DNA of 64,000 nucleotides, taken from positions 1,116,001 to 1,180,000 of the forward strand of contig NZ_JAHBOH010000001.1 in assembly GCF_018531375.1 (NCBI RefSeq), written 5' to 3'. Below are positions 2,220-31,414 of the stretch, in pieces. The notes under the pieces were generated by a model, which saw only the letters and a list, made by a program, of their open reading frames with translations, did not search any database and was not told the origin of the DNA. Both the position numbers and the translations under genes were made by a program. Each line of letters starts with the position of its first letter. Within the stretch, counting starts at the first letter, position 1. The stretch comes from Cellulomonas fulva (GTDB taxonomy: Bacteria > Actinomycetota > Actinomycetes > Actinomycetales > Cellulomonadaceae).

Positions 2220-2720
2220 TCAGGCCGCCCCGGCGTACACGGCGCCGTCCTGGACGTGCACCTCGACCGCGGGCAGCGGCTCGTCGGCGGGGCCGGAGAC
2301 GTTCGAGCCGTCGAGCCCGAAGACCGAGTTGTGGCACGGGCAGTGCAGCTCGCCGTCGTCGGGCTGGACCTCGCAGCCCTGGTGCGTGCAGACCGCGCTG
2401 TAGGCCGTGACGGTGCCCTCCGTGGCCTGGACCAGCAGGATCTTGTTGCCGCCCGCGTCCGTCGCGGCCAGCGCGCCGCCTACGGGGATGTCCGCGACCT
2501 GCGCCAACGCCTGCGCGTCGGACCCGTCGGTCCCGGCGCTGCCACCGGTCCCGCCTGATCCCGTACCGGGGGAGTCCGAGGAACCGCACGCCGCCAGGAC
2601 CGCGACGCCCGCGACCGCGAGGCCGGCCCCACCGGCCCGGGTCAGCAGCTGGCGCCGGTCCAAGCACCCTCCGCACGCGTGGTGCTCCACCTTCTCGGTC
2701 GTGCTGGTCAGGTCGGTCAT
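2220..2720 (-). CDS. Rieske [2Fe-2S] protein, Tat-exported, probably lipid-anchored
   Basis: The 166-residue protein has a Tat-like signal DRRQLLTRAG followed by a hydrophobic stretch and a lipobox-like LAAC (Cys45), then a Gly/Ser-rich linker (about 46-68) and a Rieske fold. Box 1 is CTHQGC (Cys111, His113) and box 2 CPCHNS (Cys127, His130); Cys116 and Cys129 would form the usual disulfide. It therefore binds a [2Fe-2S] cluster outside the membrane and likely transfers electrons. ATG2720 was chosen because CGGAGG precedes it and the Tat signal begins shortly after; longer upstream readings lack family features. It is coupled to the membrane protein downstream. Confidence 0.92.
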   Translation of the reverse strand: MTDLTSTTEKVEHHACGGCLDRRQLLTRAGGAGLAVAGVAVLAACGSSDSPGTGSGGTGGSAGTDGSDAQALAQVADIPVGGALAATDAGGNKILLVQATEGTVTAYSAVCTHQGCEVQPDDGELHCPCHNSVFGLDGSNVSGPADEPLPAVEVHVQDGAVYAGAA

Positions 2721-2880
2721 GGCGGGCCTCCGCTGGGTCGGTGGTGCGACACATCCCTCGTCCCGGAGGCTAACGGCGAACCCTGTGGATGCGCTGGGAA
2801 AACGACGAACCGGTGTGTTCCCGGCCACGTCCGGGCGGGCGGCGGCCCGTCGGTCGCTCGGCGTGGGGGATGCTGGGGAC

Positions 2881-4923
2881 GTGGCAGCACCAGTCCGACG
2901 GCCGGGTCCGTGGCGCGTCGCGCGGTTCGCCGCGCTCTTCGTGGCCGCGGCGCTCGTCGGGGTCGTCGTGGGCACCTGGTTCACCGGTGCGGCGCTGCCC
3001 TCGCTCGTCCGGGACGCGGGCGCGGTCGTGCGCTGGGGCCTGCCGGTGGTGGAGACGCTCACCGAGGTGGTGGGCGCGGTCGTCGTGGGTGCGCTCGTCC
3101 TCGCGGTGTGCGTCCTGCCACGGCGGGACGACGAGGCGGTGTCCCGCCGGGGCGTGCGCGCGGGCGTGCCGCGGGCGGACGGGTCCGCCTACCCGGTCAG
3201 CCTGCGCGTCGCCGCCTGGTCCGCCGCCGCGTGGACCGTCACCTCGGTGCTGCACCTGGTCCTCAGCTATGCGAACGTCGCCGGCCGCTCGCCCGCCGAG
3301 CCGACGTTCGGCGACGAGCTGTGGCTGTACGTCTCGCAGATCGAGCAGGGACGCACCCTCGCGTCCGCGGTCGTGCTCGCGGCCGTGGTCACCGCGCTCT
3401 CGCTCGTCGTGCGGACGCCCACGGGCGCCGCCTGGACGCTCGCGCTGGCGGTCGTGTCGTTGTGGCAGCTCGCGCAGCTGGGGCACGCCGCGGGGGCCGC
3501 GAGCCACGATCTCGCGACGTCCGCGATGTTCGTCCACCTGGTCGGGGCCGCGGTGTGGATCGGGGCGCTCGTCGCGCTGGCCCTGCTGGTGCGGTCGGTC
3601 GGGCGGGACCTGGCGCCGGCCGTCGCGCGGTACTCCGCGATCGCCGGCTGGTGCCTGGTCGCGGTCGCGGTGTCCGGCCTGGTCAACGGCTGGATCCGGC
3701 TGGGCTCGTGGGCGGACCTCGGCACCCGGTACGGCCAGCTGCTCGTCGTGAAGGCCGTGCTGCTCGTCGTGCTGGCCGGACTGGGGCTGGCGCACCGGCG
3801 CCGCACCATCGTCGGGCTGTCCGCGACGCCCGAGCCGCGGACGTGGCTGTTCTGGCGGCTCGTGCTCGTCGAGCTCGTGGTGATGGGCGCCGTCTCCGGC
3901 GTGGCCGTGGCGCTCGGCTCGACCGCCCCGCCCGTGCCCGAGGACCCGCCCGCCGCGCCCACCCCGGCCTACCAGATCACCGGCCACGAGCTGCCGCCGG
4001 AGCTCACCTGGGCGCAGTGGTTCACGCAGTGGCGCTGGGACCTGGTGCTGGCCTTCGTCGCCGTCGCCGCGCTCGTCGTGTACTGGCGGTGGGCCCGCCG
4101 GCTCGCCCGGCGCGGGGACGCGTGGCCCTGGGCGCGGACGGCGTCGTGGACCGTCGGGATGCTCGTCTTCCTGTGGACGACGAACGGCGGGCCCTCGACC
4201 TACGGGCACATCCTGTTCAGCGCGCACATGGTGCAGCACATGGTGCTCGCCATGGTGGTGCCCGTGCTGCTGGTGCTCGCCGCGCCCGTGACCCTGGCGA
4301 TGCGCGCGCTGCCCGTGCGGTCGGTGGCGCTGGCCGGCGACGCCTCGCGCGGGCCGCGTGAGTGGCTCCTCACCCTGGTGCACAGCCGCGTCGGCCAGCT
4401 CCTGGCGCACCCCGTGGTCGCGGCGGTGAACTTCGTCGGGTCGATGCTGGTCTTCTACTACACCGGCCTGTTCGAGTGGTCGCTGCGCAGCAGCGTGGGG
4501 CACCTGTTCATGGTCGTGCACTTCACGGCCGTCGGGTACCTGTTCGTGAACTCGCTGATCGGCATCGACCCCGGGCCGCGGCGGCTGGGCTACCCGCAGC
4601 GGCTGCTCACCCTCTTCGCGACCATGGCCTTCCACGCGTTCTTCGGCGTCACCCTCGTCTCGGGGGAGTCCCTGCTGGTGGCCGACTGGTTCGGGCTGAT
4701 GGGCCGGCCGTGGGGCGCCTCGGCCATCGCCGACCAGCAGACCGGCGGCGCCATCGCCTGGGGCATCGGCGAGCTGCCGACCCTCGCCGTCGCCGTGGGC
4801 GTCGCCATCGCCTGGGCCCGCGACGACGAGCGCGGCGCCCGCCAGCGCGACCGCCGCACCCGCACCGAGGACCCCGAGCTCGACGCCTACAACGCCATGC
4901 TCAAGTCCCTCCCCAAGTCCTGA
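2881..4923 (+). CDS. CopD-CtaG fusion membrane protein (copper resistance / cytochrome oxidase assembly)
   Basis: This is a polytopic protein of about 680 residues. The N-terminal half resembles CopD, with several helices and the HLVGAAVWIGALVALALLV segment; the C-terminal half (from about residue 360) resembles caa3-type CtaG, with HxxxH-like GHILFSAHMVQHMVLAMVVP and late TM helices. Such fusions are common in Actinobacteria and are linked to copper delivery to cytochrome c oxidase. GTG2881 is chosen because AAPVRRPGPWRVARFAAL leads straight into helix 1; other GTG/ATG codons upstream are possible. It is divergent from the Rieske gene with a 160-bp shared control region, suggesting a respiratory context. 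Confidence 0.88.
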   Translation: MAAPVRRPGPWRVARFAALFVAAALVGVVVGTWFTGAALPSLVRDAGAVVRWGLPVVETLTEVVGAVVVGALVLAVCVLPRRDDEAVSRRGVRAGVPRADGSAYPVSLRVAAWSAAAWTVTSVLHLVLSYANVAGRSPAEPTFGDELWLYVSQIEQGRTLASAVVLAAVVTALSLVVRTPTGAAWTLALAVVSLWQLAQLGHAAGAASHDLATSAMFVHLVGAAVWIGALVALALLVRSVGRDLAPAVARYSAIAGWCLVAVAVSGLVNGWIRLGSWADLGTRYGQLLVVKAVLLVVLAGLGLAHRRRTIVGLSATPEPRTWLFWRLVLVELVVMGAVSGVAVALGSTAPPVPEDPPAAPTPAYQITGHELPPELTWAQWFTQWRWDLVLAFVAVAALVVYWRWARRLARRGDAWPWARTASWTVGMLVFLWTTNGGPSTYGHILFSAHMVQHMVLAMVVPVLLVLAAPVTLAMRALPVRSVALAGDASRGPREWLLTLVHSRVGQLLAHPVVAAVNFVGSMLVFYYTGLFEWSLRSSVGHLFMVVHFTAVGYLFVNSLIGIDPGPRRLGYPQRLLTLFATMAFHAFFGVTLVSGESLLVADWFGLMGRPWGASAIADQQTGGAIAWGIGELPTLAVAVGVAIAWARDDERGARQRDRRTRTEDPELDAYNAMLKSLPKS

Positions 4924-4951
4924 CCCACCCACCGGCGCCCCACCCACCCCC

Positions 4952-5085
4952 CTCGCCGAGAACGTCATGTCTCCGGGTCTGACCGCTCGTAGCCGGAGAG
5001 ATCGCGTGGTCGCCACCACCCCCTTCGCTGAGAACGTCATGTCTCCGGGTCTGGCGCCTTACAGCCGGAGGGATCGCGTGGTCGG
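4952..5085 (-). repeat. Two copies of a palindromic REP-like element (reverse orientation)
   Basis: Two adjacent units (about 4952-5021 and 5024-5085) share, on the minus strand, CGACCACGCGATC followed by a hairpin of the type CTCCGGCT-loop-ACCCGGAGAC and then ATGACGTTCTC. The same element appears three times at 6115-6360 in the opposite orientation. Copy 2 overlaps the end of the DUF559-like gene: its last codons and TAA stop come from the repeat. The units fill the gap after the CopD-CtaG gene and could also act as a bidirectional terminator. Confidence 0.85.
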
Positions 5086-6012
5086 GGGGAGGGCCGAGCA
5101 GACCGTTCGTGGAATTCGACCCGTGCCGAGGTCGGGGTAGGCGAACCGGAGCAGGTCCGCGCGGCCCGAGAGCGCGATGCGGTTCTGACGGTCGCGGTCG
5201 GCCAGGACCGCGGCCGGGCCGGAGTGGAACTCGTCGCCGTCGAGCTCGACCAGCAGCCAGCGGCCGCCGGGCAGCCGCCACGCCATGTCGCCCCGGACGA
5301 GGCCGCGCCCGTCACCGAGGACCATCTCCAGCTGGAGCTCGTCGGGCACGAGCCCGTCATCGAGGCACTCGAGCCGGGCGAAGCTCTCGAAGGGTGACTC
5401 CGCTCGACCGTCGATGTGGCCCCACCACGTCCGGACGCGCGCCACCCCCCGTCGGCCCCTCATCCGGCGTTCGATCTCCGGAACCGCGTCGGATGCGAGT
5501 GCACCGCGGTGCAGCACGTCGTCCATCACGGCCAGGCCGTGCCGGCGCGGCAGCTCCGGCAGCGCCTCGACGAGCGCGTCGACGAGGGACGCGGAGCGGT
5601 GGCCCGCGACGACCTGAGGCTGGACCGACGCGTACTGGCGGAGGCGGATGCCGTCCCGGGATCGGCGGTGCACCCCGCCAGGAACCGCCGCCTCGGGCTG
5701 CAGGTGGACCGGCAGGCCGTGGACACCATGGAGCACGAGCGCTGACGTACCCACCGCGATCGCCGCGGGCCCGAGGGCGAGGAGACCCGCAAGCGCCGCG
5801 CGGAGCCGCCGGTCGTCGGGGGAGAGCGTGGGCGCTCCCGGCGGCCTGACGTCGAGCACGCCCGAGGTGACCCGGCGCCACCGCCCGCTCGCGACGAGCC
5901 GGGTCCGCGAGTCCCGACCGACCCCGTGCTCGTCGCACTGGCGTCCCGACACGAGGCCCACCTGCTGCGCAGCCAGCGCGAGCAGGGAGTCCGGGAGCAC
6001 GACCGTCCGCAT
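5059..6012 (-). CDS. AbiEi-like / DUF559 domain protein, bracketed by inverted palindromic repeats
   Basis: About 317 residues. The N-terminal part (VSGRQCDEHGVGRDSRTRL) looks like the winged-helix domain of AbiEi-type antitoxins found at the start of many actinobacterial DUF559 proteins. The C-terminal part, WLLVELDGDEFHSG followed by DRDRQNRIAL and LLRFAYPDL, fits the Vsr/restriction-endonuclease-like DUF559 fold with a putative acidic site. No AbiEii-type toxin is adjacent. ATG6012 is preferred because GAGGTG lies about ten bases upstream; ATG6030 is the alternative. The final residues PTTRSLRL and the TAA stop are encoded by a REP-like repeat. Its function is unknown; phage defence or DNA repair are only possibilities. 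Confidence 0.75.
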   Translation of the reverse strand: MRTVVLPDSLLALAAQQVGLVSGRQCDEHGVGRDSRTRLVASGRWRRVTSGVLDVRPPGAPTLSPDDRRLRAALAGLLALGPAAIAVGTSALVLHGVHGLPVHLQPEAAVPGGVHRRSRDGIRLRQYASVQPQVVAGHRSASLVDALVEALPELPRRHGLAVMDDVLHRGALASDAVPEIERRMRGRRGVARVRTWWGHIDGRAESPFESFARLECLDDGLVPDELQLEMVLGDGRGLVRGDMAWRLPGGRWLLVELDGDEFHSGPAAVLADRDRQNRIALSGRADLLRFAYPDLGTGRIPRTVCSALPPTTRSLRL

Positions 6013-6114
6013 CGCGTGATGACACCTCATCGCGCGGTCGCTCGGGCGACCCCACCCGCATCTTGTGGACGCCGCAACGCCCTAGGGAGCCAGAGCTCGG
6101 CCCGGCCCGGGCGT

Positions 6115-6360
6115 CCACCACGTCATCTCTCCGGCTCTGAGACGCCAGGCCCGGAGACATCACGTTGTCGGCGAGGGGGTGGTGGCGACCACGCGATCGC
6201 TCCGGTTCTGAGGGGACAGAGCCGGAGGGATGGCGTTCTCGGCGTGGGGGTGGCGATCACGTGCCATCTCGTGGGTTGGGGGGCCGGCGAGGGGGTGGTG
6301 GCGACCACGCGATCTCTCCGGCTTTGAGACGCCAGAGCTGGAGAGATGACGTTCTCGGCC
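6115..6360 (+). repeat. Three copies of the palindromic REP-like element (forward orientation)
   Basis: Units lie at about 6115-6175, 6184-6243 and 6297-6360. The last is the cleanest: CGACCACGCGATC, then a 12-bp stem ATCTCTCCGGCT / AGCTGGAGAGAT with one G-T pair around a 12-base loop, then GACGTTCTCGGC. A half-degenerate copy may sit at 6250-6290 (GGTGGCGATCACGTGCCATC). They occupy most of the 450-bp non-coding gap between the DUF559-like gene and the S9 peptidase, in inverse orientation to the pair at 4952-5085. Confidence 0.85.
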
Positions 6361-6393
6361 GGTGGGGGTGGCGGGGGCCGGGAGGGGTGGGAC

Positions 6394-6441
6394 GGGTGCG
6401 GTGAGCGGGGTGGGTGGGGTGCGGTGAGCGGGGGTGGGTGG
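6394..6441 (+). repeat. G-rich 23-bp tandem duplication upstream of the S9 peptidase
   Basis: The unit GGGTGCGGTGAGCGGGG-TGGGTGG occurs at 6394 and again at 6417. From 6361 to 6463 the plus strand is almost all G and T with many GGG or GGGG runs, so it could form G-quadruplexes on the coding strand directly before the peptidase start. Confidence 0.7.
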
Positions 6442-6451
6442 GGTGGCGTGG

Positions 6452-6457
6452 TAGGAC
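6452..6457 (+). promoter_or_regulatory. Candidate -10 element for leaderless transcription of the S9 peptidase
   Basis: TAGGAC ends seven bases before ATG6464, the spacing expected when transcription starts at the start codon. It matches the TANNNT-like -10 elements seen before other genes here (for example TAGCGT at 24220) less well than those do. A GGGGGG run also sits before the ATG, so a leadered mRNA is not excluded. Confidence 0.35.
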
Positions 6458-6463
6458 GGGGGG

Positions 6464-8602
6464 ATGGTGGATCGGTGGGACGTGGAGGAGTACGTCGGGG
6501 TGCCTCGGGTGTCCGGGCTGGTGCTGTCCGGGGACGGGCAGCGGCTGGTGACCGGCGTGGCGACGCTCGACTCGAAGAAGACGAAGTACCTGACGGCGCT
6601 GTGGGAGGTGGACCCCACCGGTGAGCGGCCGGCGCGGCGGCTGACCCGCTCGGCGAAGAGCGAGGGCGGAGCGGCGTTCACGCGCGGCGGCGACCTGCTG
6701 TTCACGAGCGCGCGCCCCGATCCGGACGCGAAGGACGGCGACGACGACGGCCCGCCCGCGCTGTGGCTGCTGCCCCGCGACGGCGCGGAGGCGCGTGTGG
6801 TCGCGGCGCGCAAGGGCGGGCTCGGTGGCGTCAAGGTCGCCACGGACGCCGACGTCCTGATCGTCACGGGCGACGTGCTGCCGGGCGCCACGGACGCGGA
6901 GCACGACGAGCAGCTCCGCAAGGAGCGCAAGGACAAGAAGGTCGCGGCGATCCTGCACGACGGCTACCCGGTCCGGTACTGGGACCACGACCTGGGCCCG
7001 GACCAGCCGCACGTGTTCAGCGCCGACCTGGCCGGGCTGGTGACGGGCGACGACGAGGCGCCGCTGGCGGGCGAGGAAGAGGCGCGGCTCGAGCTGGTGG
7101 ACCGCACGCCCCAGCCGCGCGCGGCGCTCGTCGAGCAGACGCCCGCGGTCTCGCCGGACGGCACGACGATCGTCACGGGCTGGACCGAGCCGCGGGCGCG
7201 GGCGGACCAGCGCAGCCGGATCGTCGCGATCGACGTGGCGAGCGGCGCGCGCCGCACGCTCGTCGCGGACGACGAGGTCGACGCCTGGTCGCCGGTGGTC
7301 TCGCCGGACGGGCGCTGGGTGGTCTACGGCTACGAGACGATCTCGACGCCGCACCGGGCACCGCGCTCGGGGCTGGCGCTGGTGCCGCTGGCCGGCGGCG
7401 AGCCGCGCGTGCTCGCGCCGGAGTGGGACCGCTGGCCGGGCAGCCCGGTGTGGCTGCCGGACTCGTCGGGCCTCCTCGTCGTCGCGGACGACGAGGGACG
7501 CTCGCCGATCTTCCGGATCGACCTGGCGACCCGCCAGGACGGGGCCGCCGCCAGCGACACGATCACGCGCGTGACCAGCGACGACGCGGCGTTCACCGAC
7601 GTGCAGGTGGCCCCCGACGGCCGCACGGCGTACGCGCTGCGCTCGTCGTACCTGGCCCCGGCGCACCCGGTCCGGATCGACCTCACGGCCGTCCCGACGC
7701 AGGCGGTCCCGCTGCGCTCGCCCGCGCCGACGCCGGAGCTCCCCGGCCGGCTGGAGGAGGTCGAGACGACGGTCCAGGACGGCCGCCGCGTGCGCGCCTG
7801 GCTGGCGCTGCCGGAGGGCGCGGACGCAGGCGCGCCGGCCCCGCTGCTGCTGTGGATCCACGGTGGCCCGCTCGGCTCCTGGAACGCGTGGTCGTGGCGC
7901 TGGAACCCGTGGCTGCTCGTGGCCCAGGGGTACGCCGTGCTGCTGCCGGACCCGGCCCTCTCGACGGGGTACGGCCAGGACTTCGTGCAGGCGGGCTGGG
8001 GCGCGTGGGGCCGGGCCCCGTTCACGGACCTCATGGCGATCACGGACGCCGCGGAGGCGCGCGCGGACGTCGACGAGACCCGCACGGCCGCGATGGGCGG
8101 GTCCTTCGGCGGCTACATGGCCAACTGGGTGGCCGGCCACACGGACCGGTTCCGGGCGATCGTCACGCACGCGAGCCTGTGGGCGCTGGACCAGTTCGGC
8201 CCGACGACGGACGCGTCCTTCTACTGGCAGCGCGAGATGACGCCGGAGATGGCGCTCGAGAGCTCGCCGCACCGGCACGTCGAGAACATCGTGACGCCCA
8301 TGCTCGTCGTGCACGGCGACAAGGACTACCGCGTGCCCATCGGCGAGGGCCTGCGCCTGTGGTACGAGCTGCTCGCGAAGTCCGGCCTCCCGGCCGACGA
8401 GGACGGCCGGTCGCCGCACCGCTTCCTGTACTTCCCGGACGAGAACCACTGGGTCCTGAGCCCGCAGCACGCGGTGGTCTGGTACCAGGTGGTCACCGCC
8501 TTCCTCGCCGAGCACGTGCCTGCCCGAACGGGTGACCACGGCGCGGGCGAGGCGGGGGACGGCCACGGAAAGCGCCCCGGATACCCGGACGTACTGGGAT
8601 GA
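6464..8602 (+). CDS. S9 family (prolyl oligopeptidase-like) serine peptidase
   Basis: The 712-residue protein has an N-terminal beta-propeller (about 1-420, with repeated SPDG motifs) and a C-terminal alpha/beta-hydrolase domain. The catalytic triad is readable: Ser547 in GGSFGGYM, Asp621 in HGDKDYRVP and His662 in DENHW. This arrangement is typical of acylaminoacyl-peptidase/dipeptidyl-peptidase-like S9 enzymes. No signal peptide is visible, so it is probably cytoplasmic and cleaves short peptides. The last 25 residues are hydrophilic and not part of the fold. It is monocistronic, with REP-like repeats and a G-rich tract upstream. Confidence 0.93.
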   Translation: MVDRWDVEEYVGVPRVSGLVLSGDGQRLVTGVATLDSKKTKYLTALWEVDPTGERPARRLTRSAKSEGGAAFTRGGDLLFTSARPDPDAKDGDDDGPPALWLLPRDGAEARVVAARKGGLGGVKVATDADVLIVTGDVLPGATDAEHDEQLRKERKDKKVAAILHDGYPVRYWDHDLGPDQPHVFSADLAGLVTGDDEAPLAGEEEARLELVDRTPQPRAALVEQTPAVSPDGTTIVTGWTEPRARADQRSRIVAIDVASGARRTLVADDEVDAWSPVVSPDGRWVVYGYETISTPHRAPRSGLALVPLAGGEPRVLAPEWDRWPGSPVWLPDSSGLLVVADDEGRSPIFRIDLATRQDGAAASDTITRVTSDDAAFTDVQVAPDGRTAYALRSSYLAPAHPVRIDLTAVPTQAVPLRSPAPTPELPGRLEEVETTVQDGRRVRAWLALPEGADAGAPAPLLLWIHGGPLGSWNAWSWRWNPWLLVAQGYAVLLPDPALSTGYGQDFVQAGWGAWGRAPFTDLMAITDAAEARADVDETRTAAMGGSFGGYMANWVAGHTDRFRAIVTHASLWALDQFGPTTDASFYWQREMTPEMALESSPHRHVENIVTPMLVVHGDKDYRVPIGEGLRLWYELLAKSGLPADEDGRSPHRFLYFPDENHWVLSPQHAVVWYQVVTAFLAEHVPARTGDHGAGEAGDGHGKRPGYPDVLG

Positions 8603-31292: not shown

Positions 31293-31343
31293 GGCGGGGC
31301 GACCAGATCAGGGGCGACCACCTCGACGGCGACCGCGTCAGGG

Positions 31344-31414
31344 AGCGGGTGACGGGAATCGAACCCGCGCCATCAGCTTGGGAAGCTGAAGTTCTACCAT
31401 TGAACTACACCCGC
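31344..31414 (-). tRNA. tRNA-Gly (anticodon CCC)
   Basis: On the minus strand the acceptor GCGGGTG pairs with CACCCGC; the D arm reads GTTC-AATGGTA-GAAC, the anticodon stem TCAGC/GCTGA encloses the loop TTCCCAA, and the T arm is GCGGG-TTCGATT-CCCGT. The anticodon is CCC, decoding GGG glycine codons. The discriminator is T and the CCA end is not encoded. It lies alone between the chemoreceptor and an acyl-CoA synthetase. Confidence 0.95.

Follow-up and report, generated by a model that had tools for sequence, protein, structure and literature searches.

The DNA analysed here is a window of 64,000 nucleotides (C1:1116001-1180000) of a 3.74-Mb Cellulomonas-type genome, labelled G000 below. Between the conserved neighbours ctaG and an S9 peptidase gene, it holds a gene for a predicted DNA-binding and nuclease protein, accompanied by five palindromes. 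The features are, in window coordinates:

2407-4923, plus strand: ctaG (CopD + Caa3_CtaG), conserved neighbour, context only (Pfam Caa3_CtaG, E 5e-84; start codon approximate)
4957-5012, plus strand: palindrome copy 1, A-to-B hybrid
5029-5084, plus strand: palindrome copy 2, A/B hybrid, supplying the gene's last codons and its TAA stop
5059-6030, minus strand: gene for a putative AbiEi-type DNA-binding module joined to an EDxHD/Vsr-like nuclease (323 aa; Pfam, AlphaFold2, fold matches)
6115-6170, minus strand: palindrome copy 3, mixed A/B arrangement
6186-6241, minus strand: palindrome copy 4, A/B hybrid, inverted relative to copies 1 and 2
6302-6357, minus strand: palindrome copy 5, A/B hybrid, inverted relative to copies 1 and 2
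6464-8602, plus strand: S9 peptidase gene, conserved neighbour, context only (Pfam Peptidase_S9, E 2.5e-43)

Each window palindrome is about 56 bp long, with a layout of 25+6+25 bp and asymmetric half-sites of an A type (CGAGAACGTC) and a B type (CGACCACGCG). The consensus ends in an alignment of 17 copies are CGA..TCG. Copies 1 and 2 read A to B on the plus strand and copies 4 and 5 read B to A, so the two groups are mutually inverted. With the gene on the minus strand, copies 1 and 2 are located at its 3' end and copies 3 to 5 upstream of it. This confirms the original prediction that the gene is bracketed by inverted repeats, copy 3 being mixed. The prediction was also right that copy 2 supplies the residues PTTRSLRL and the stop codon: the reading frame runs into this copy, with (P)TTRSLRL as its last residues there and TAA at 5059-5061 as its stop. 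The sequence pattern it proposed gave, with up to two mismatches, 10 matches (five sites on both strands) versus 0.28 expected in shuffles, a number equalled by none of 100 shuffles. Folded alone, copies 4 and 5 were far more stable than shuffles (z -5.4 and -5.7); copies 1 to 3 were not much stabler (z -1.0 to -1.6). A search of window positions 4800-6500 against Rfam found no match at E <= 1. The sole tRNA gene found in the window is a tRNA-Gly (ccc) at 31342-31414.

The only Pfam family matching the window protein above the cut-off is AbiEi_4 (E 3e-6), with a further match, below the cut-off, to the Vsr-like REase family MTES_1575. DUF559 itself was not matched by the protein in Pfam and reached E <= 0.1 in two of 27 aligned relatives. 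NCBIfam gave no match for the protein, and profile A2 none among PDB sequences at E <= 1. In the AlphaFold2 model (mean pLDDT 92.5), residues 9-207 match the AbiEi antitoxin 6y8q (Z 8.4, 177 aligned residues, 7.0 Å; Foldseek E 3e-5), and an AbiEi-type wHTH with the domain that follows it is present. Residues 212-319 of this predicted model match the catalytic domain of the homing endonuclease I-Bth0305I (3r3p; Z 10.7, 94 aligned residues, 2.7 Å) and Vsr (1cw0; Z 8.0, 98 aligned residues, 3.2 Å), fold-match Z values near 8 being attainable without kinship and weak if alone. Six residues of the protein, E215, D248, E262, D264, H269 and D278, are invariant in all 27 aligned sequences and may include the E, D, H and D of the EDxHD/Vsr catalytic motif. 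A nuclease identity of the C-terminal domain is supported by its predicted fold, and the bracketed gene probably encodes a DNA-cutting enzyme.

A covariance model built from the 17 palindrome copies detected 32 sites at E < 0.001 in the genome, of which five belong to the window and 27 lie outside it, as well as two weak ones; further weak copies may be missing, as 150 of 6025 first-look candidates were scored. According to a simple GC-based gene caller, 31 of the 32 sites are extragenic. The 27 sites outside the window fall into 10 convergent, 15 tandem and one divergent gap, with one inside a gene, compared with 17 convergent, 49 tandem and 18 divergent arrangements among 84 gene pairs (gap at least 60) taken from the same stretches and the window. 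Within copies, 25 cells were changed on both arms versus 12.8 after shuffling (1/500), and the other covariation measures lay within the shuffle range (pairs with both-arm changes 144/500, pair types 315/500). Fifteen of the 27 other copies are located less than 0.45 Mb from the window's gene (C1 0.67-1.57 Mb, about a quarter of the genome), a post hoc count that includes tandem copies. Adjacent copies in the repeat arrays of G032 and G041 (L072-L087) mostly follow each other at a period of 72-73 bp, although their spacers, about 16 nt long, differ in sequence. The expectation of REP- or BIME-like repeats was thus borne out by dispersed, extragenic palindromes and the regular period of most of these arrays. 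The aligned 17 copies end in CGA..TCG and lack a GTAG-type end tag. The Y1 transposase family (PF01797), to which the RAYT enzyme belongs, was found in none of 12 genomes, including the four with most matches to the window palindrome (G000, G025, G032 and G041); the transposase search covered the Y1 family, and its profile was positive in five of 14 control genomes.

Only one of the six AbiEi/nuclease homologues of the genome, the window's gene itself, lies within 5 kb of a window-type repeat, the next nearest being 6.4 kb away. The homologue at 598913 has a different palindrome, weakly matched by the covariance model. Different long palindromes of their own, within about 0.7 kb (scores 20-25), were seen at the distant paralogues L261, L267 and L271 (598898, 1195222 and 1862307). 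The proposed enrichment of DUF559 genes beside the repeat is therefore not found within this genome. The link between gene and palindrome becomes visible across species, since the palindrome is specific to the gene lineage.

The closest named orthologues of the window gene are from Cellulomonas. Of 60 genomes of the genus, 40 contain orthologues (E <= 1e-8), with at most four matches per genome. Searching named genomes with the protein alone gave no match; loci were found by an alignment-based scan, the best 80 of whose 101 loci comprise 67 orthologous loci and 13 distant ones (L155-L167, counted apart). By record title the 67 loci belong to eleven genera (Cellulomonas, Cellulosimicrobium, Oerskovia, Isoptericola, Promicromonospora, Luteimicrobium, Antribacter, Ruania, Occultella, Pseudactinotalea and Sediminihabitans). 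Six of them are shortened by contig ends, and L117, L151 and L152, which have frame problems, were left out of the tree and the identity table. A sequence-blind palindrome finder applied to a set of 33 loci reported 25 palindromes (score at least 14) within 400 bp of the gene and two elsewhere. At the same score, the 67 loci, a set that is not independent of the first as many loci are common to both, contain 64 palindromes at gene ends (35 upstream, 29 downstream) versus 23 in all other sequence. The null expectation at gene ends was 2.8 +/- 1.6 (maximum 10 in 2000 draws), which may understate palindromes at ordinary gene ends since random windows of the same loci include coding DNA. Counted per locus, palindromes were upstream in 34, downstream in 26, on both sides in 17, on at least one side in 43 and on neither in 24 of the 67; the number of palindrome-free loci was 17 at a score of 12.5. 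At a score of at least 12.5, the downstream palindrome overlaps the 3' end of the gene in 18 of the 33 among the 67 loci that have one.

Palindrome sequence differs by gene lineage, yet it matches at the two ends of one gene. Similarity between the two ends was 38.3, versus 10.0 between genes, in the 21 loci with palindromes on both sides (score at least 12.5), and the own partner ranked first in 17 of these 21 (permutation p 1e-4). Among 41 loci, between-gene similarity was 46.3 at a protein identity of at least 80% (7 pairs), 23.5 at 65-80% (17 pairs), 12.3 at 55-65% and 9.0 at 45-55% (512 pairs). The two gene copies of C. avistercoris (L142 and L148) have different palindromes. Bracketing and matching ends across orthologous loci thus uphold the predicted link between repeat and gene. 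One of the 13 distant relatives is also bracketed, L159 of Tomitella biformata (Mycobacteriales). This homologue, 29% identical, lies between matching palindromes at 2259-2315 and 3294-3350 whose ends are CGA..TCG-like.

The three palindromes that were sought genome-wide are multi-copy mostly, although not only, in genomes with a matching gene; reversed-pattern controls gave 0 matches in each of these searches. Palindrome P1 (GACATG..CATGTCGGGTTC) is present in four of the 60 genomes (G022 with 4 sites, G059 with 6, G054 with 7 and G018 with 1), hence multi-copy in three of 60, and flanks the gene in G022 and G059. In G054 it occupies seven sites, but the orthologue of that genome (L049) is flanked by a different palindrome. 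Palindrome P3 (CGAGACCGG..CCGGTCTCG) occurs in 10 of 60 genomes. Seven of them, G003 (6 sites), G007 (11), G016 (19), G019 (7), G028 (8), G043 (17) and G044 (13), are exactly those whose best protein match is 43-46% identical; P3 is also found in G052 (12 sites), G046 (2) and G025 (1), without such an orthologue. Among the matches listed, exact P3 copies adjoin the gene in G007, G016, G019 and G043, and none was seen beside it in G003 or G028. Of the genomes searched with the palindrome of Promicromonospora iranensis, the two in which it accompanies the gene have 21 and 15 sites, and ten others, three of them Promicromonospora, have none. G032 has the most matches to the window palindrome R1 (80), yet only distant homologues of the gene.

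This distribution bears on the possibility that the palindromes act as ordinary bidirectional terminators or as hairpins at mRNA ends and have spread in some other way, the gene being merely situated among them. In favour of this are the extragenic location of 31 of 32 sites, mostly between or behind genes, and the strong hairpins of two of the five window copies. Terminators, however, need neither a clade-specific sequence nor matching ends at one gene, the palindrome density is about 20-fold at the gene, and genome-wide copies are mostly in genomes with the matching gene. We consider this explanation very improbable.

The gene resides between ctaG and the S9 gene in about half of the loci and is not a hopping cargo. 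One or both of these neighbours adjoin it in 33 of the 67 loci, which indicates that in these it is largely inherited in place; in the other 34, several of which are bracketed too, neither lies within 2.5 kb. Among the placeable rows of a 67-row tree, 27 have the gene co-directional with its neighbours and seven have it inverted, the window's gene belonging to the latter; the orientation label changes four times, three of these changes being forced by well-supported branches. The S9 peptidase gene was found in 19 of 20 chosen congeners. Seven of the ten gene-less congeners with ctaG in reach have a ctaG-S9 gap of 49-130 bp that contains no palindrome; the gap measures 232 bp in gene-less G020. 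In gene-less G032, the most repeat-rich congener, it measures 863 bp and holds an Abi_2/HEPN-like gene (L237 2156-2794). The 940-bp gap of gene-less G010 contains six palindromes and no close orthologue (L239 556-1415), perhaps because the gene was lost from between its repeats. These six palindromes have a period near 150 bp and fill most of the gap.

The original prediction had envisaged mobile cargo hopping with its repeats, i.e., gene and palindromes moving together as one transposon-like or homing module, of which solitary palindromes would be remnants. In favour of this are the palindrome-free gaps of the seven gene-less congeners and the 34 loci away from both usual neighbours, with several bracketed genes among them. 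Against this reading, the ctaG-S9 position is common to 33 of 67 loci across genera, with orientation flips, no genome has more than four gene matches, and 72,556 plasmid and 50,697 phage records contained no match to the gene at E <= 1e-5. Synteny in particular lowers the case for a cargo transposon, and movement as a unit appears quite unlikely to us. The defence link that had been suggested for the module finds no support in the immediate context either, which consists of ctaG and the S9 peptidase gene with no AbiEii partner adjacent.

Comparisons of close genomes give an impression of how the palindromes behave. G007 and G028 are 94-96% identical in most alignments and the two Promicromonospora iranensis genomes about 92%. 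Between G007 and G028, four sites are common by pattern and seven others differ: four are present but altered, another has lost a part, a further one is a local duplication and one is without a counterpart found. Of the 21 sites compared in the Promicromonospora iranensis pair, 17 are in the same place, one is seemingly reduced to its ends, one lies in a replaced region and two are unmapped. One site of the second genome (L308) is absent in the first, where the surrounding DNA has diverged, and was therefore rejected as a clean insertion; no clean palindrome insertion was found in either pair. Nearly all copies thus occupy shared sites in close pairs, and losses or local duplication explain most differences. 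Between G000 and G032, only two of the 27 G032 loci listed (38 sites) coincide with the 20 non-window loci of G000, and another has a match on a single flank. In one of the two coinciding loci, each genome clearly has arms of its own local type. Sharing in close pairs and this low coincidence indicate that copies are long-lived and that their positions differ by lineage. By reasoning, recombination within two palindromes with inversion as its outcome is not enough to explain the A/B hybrid arms.

Stability at shared positions between close genomes would also be expected if the palindromes served for binding only, as operators of an AbiEi-like regulator that represses its own gene from the upstream copy and uses the scattered copies, spread without cutting by the nuclease, as a regulon or as chromosome-organising sites. 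AbiEi antitoxins do autoregulate from paired inverted repeats of similar geometry (PMC7319586). Against this reading, scattered sites are rare in divergent gaps (one of 27, as compared with 18 of 84 gene pairs), copies are also present at the downstream end of the gene, most positions are not common to G032, and nuclease-type residues are invariant in 27 aligned sequences. We regard regulation by binding only as somewhat unlikely.

The analysis shows that gene and palindromes are associated, with bracketing in many genera, matching ends and clade-specific multi-copy dispersal; it also shows invariant catalytic-type residues in the aligned relatives and orientation flips. We tentatively propose, at slightly less than even confidence, that they constitute one cognate system that works like REP/RAYT with a non-homologous enzyme, in which the AbiEi half binds and the nuclease drives copying. 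Binding of the protein to the palindrome is likely. AbiEi is reported to bind a pair of 23-bp inverted repeats separated by 3 bp (PMC7319586), and the target on which the EDxHD enzyme I-Bth0305I forms a dimer is reported to span nearly 60 bp (PMC3943268). From the geometry of these targets, we infer one AbiEi half per arm of the 25+6+25 bp palindrome, so that the AbiEi-type half would dock as a dimer on the two inverted half-sites of about 25 bp. The EDxHD/Vsr-type nuclease would then cut in or close to palindromes, which would probably take the form of extruded or single-stranded hairpins, and repair or replication would copy palindrome sequence to new places and between copies. Such cutting and copying is proposed as the most economical use of a conserved nuclease located between its own palindromes. 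The gene would stay resident between its cognate palindromes and could flip between them, the observed orientation flips presumably running through the palindromes, and solitary copies would settle in extragenic DNA. Counting against a cognate system are palindromes without a matching gene in G032, in G054 (P1) and in G052 and G046 (P3). The same holds for the lack of exact P3 copies next to the gene in G003 and G028, for the 24 of 67 loci without a palindrome at a score of at least 14, for the two covariation measures within the shuffle range and for the shared sites, with no clean insertion, in close pairs. A more far-reaching version, which we regard as possible but doubtful, is that this is an HUH-independent second class of REP-like mobile palindromes, where an AbiEi-guided EDxHD/Vsr nuclease recognises its clade-specific palindrome as a hairpin or cruciform, spreads and homogenises it, and keeps its own gene between palindromes.

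The closest parallel in anatomy is the REP/RAYT (TnpA-REP) system with its REPtrons and TIRtrons, for which PMC2817692, PMC3733652 and PMC3116915 describe a gene flanked by inverted cognate repeats that overlap its end, repeats that are dispersed and extragenic, and a gene that is not self-mobile. These systems differ from the one studied here in the enzyme, which here is AbiEi plus nuclease and not HUH/Y1, in palindrome length (about 55-70 bp here, 20-40 for REPs), in the GTAG tag, which is absent here, and in copy number, with about 4-40 sites per genome here and reportedly usually more than 100 for REPs. As the Y1 enzyme was not found in 12 genomes and the bracketed enzyme is unrelated, the system is not a member of REP/RAYT, although it appears to work like one. 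BIMEs and REPINs resemble it in their palindrome clusters, with the fixed 72-73 bp spacing in most G032 and G041 arrays. With AbiE type IV toxin-antitoxin systems (AbiEi/Rv2827c) it shares the predicted fold of residues 9-207 and the paired inverted-repeat geometry; it differs by the lack of an adjacent AbiEii nucleotidyltransferase toxin gene (the neighbours are ctaG and S9), by the added C-terminal nuclease, and by sites that lie on both sides of the gene and are scattered. I-Bth0305I and Vsr are alike in the fold predicted for residues 212-319 (Z 10.7 and 8.0), and I-Bth0305I also in a dimer-bound target of similar length (PMC3943268). Unlike these, the window gene shows no intron or intein, is bracketed by palindromes and has an AbiEi-type DNA-binding part. 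CGTC-tagged REPs are likewise dispersed palindromes without a known dedicated transposase, and their spread and missing enzyme are called an open question by Di Nocera et al. (PMC3733652); they are short, tagged and mostly from Alphaproteobacteria, whereas the window repeat is without such an end tag.

In the literature searched (titles and abstract openings, with most subscription journals and preprints outside its scope), we found no description of an association between AbiEi/nuclease genes and palindromes. In this group of soil bacteria, the locus looks like a repeat-spreading system built around an enzyme other than the known one. If this is true, the same gene-repeat anatomy exists around another, unrelated enzyme, and the partnership of nuclease and palindrome would have evolved more than once. 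It would further provide a testable function for a family that is recognised here only by its AbiEi domain, and specificity could be studied with one protein-palindrome pair per species. Cognate palindromes may likewise accompany other AbiEi/nuclease genes of Actinomycetota.
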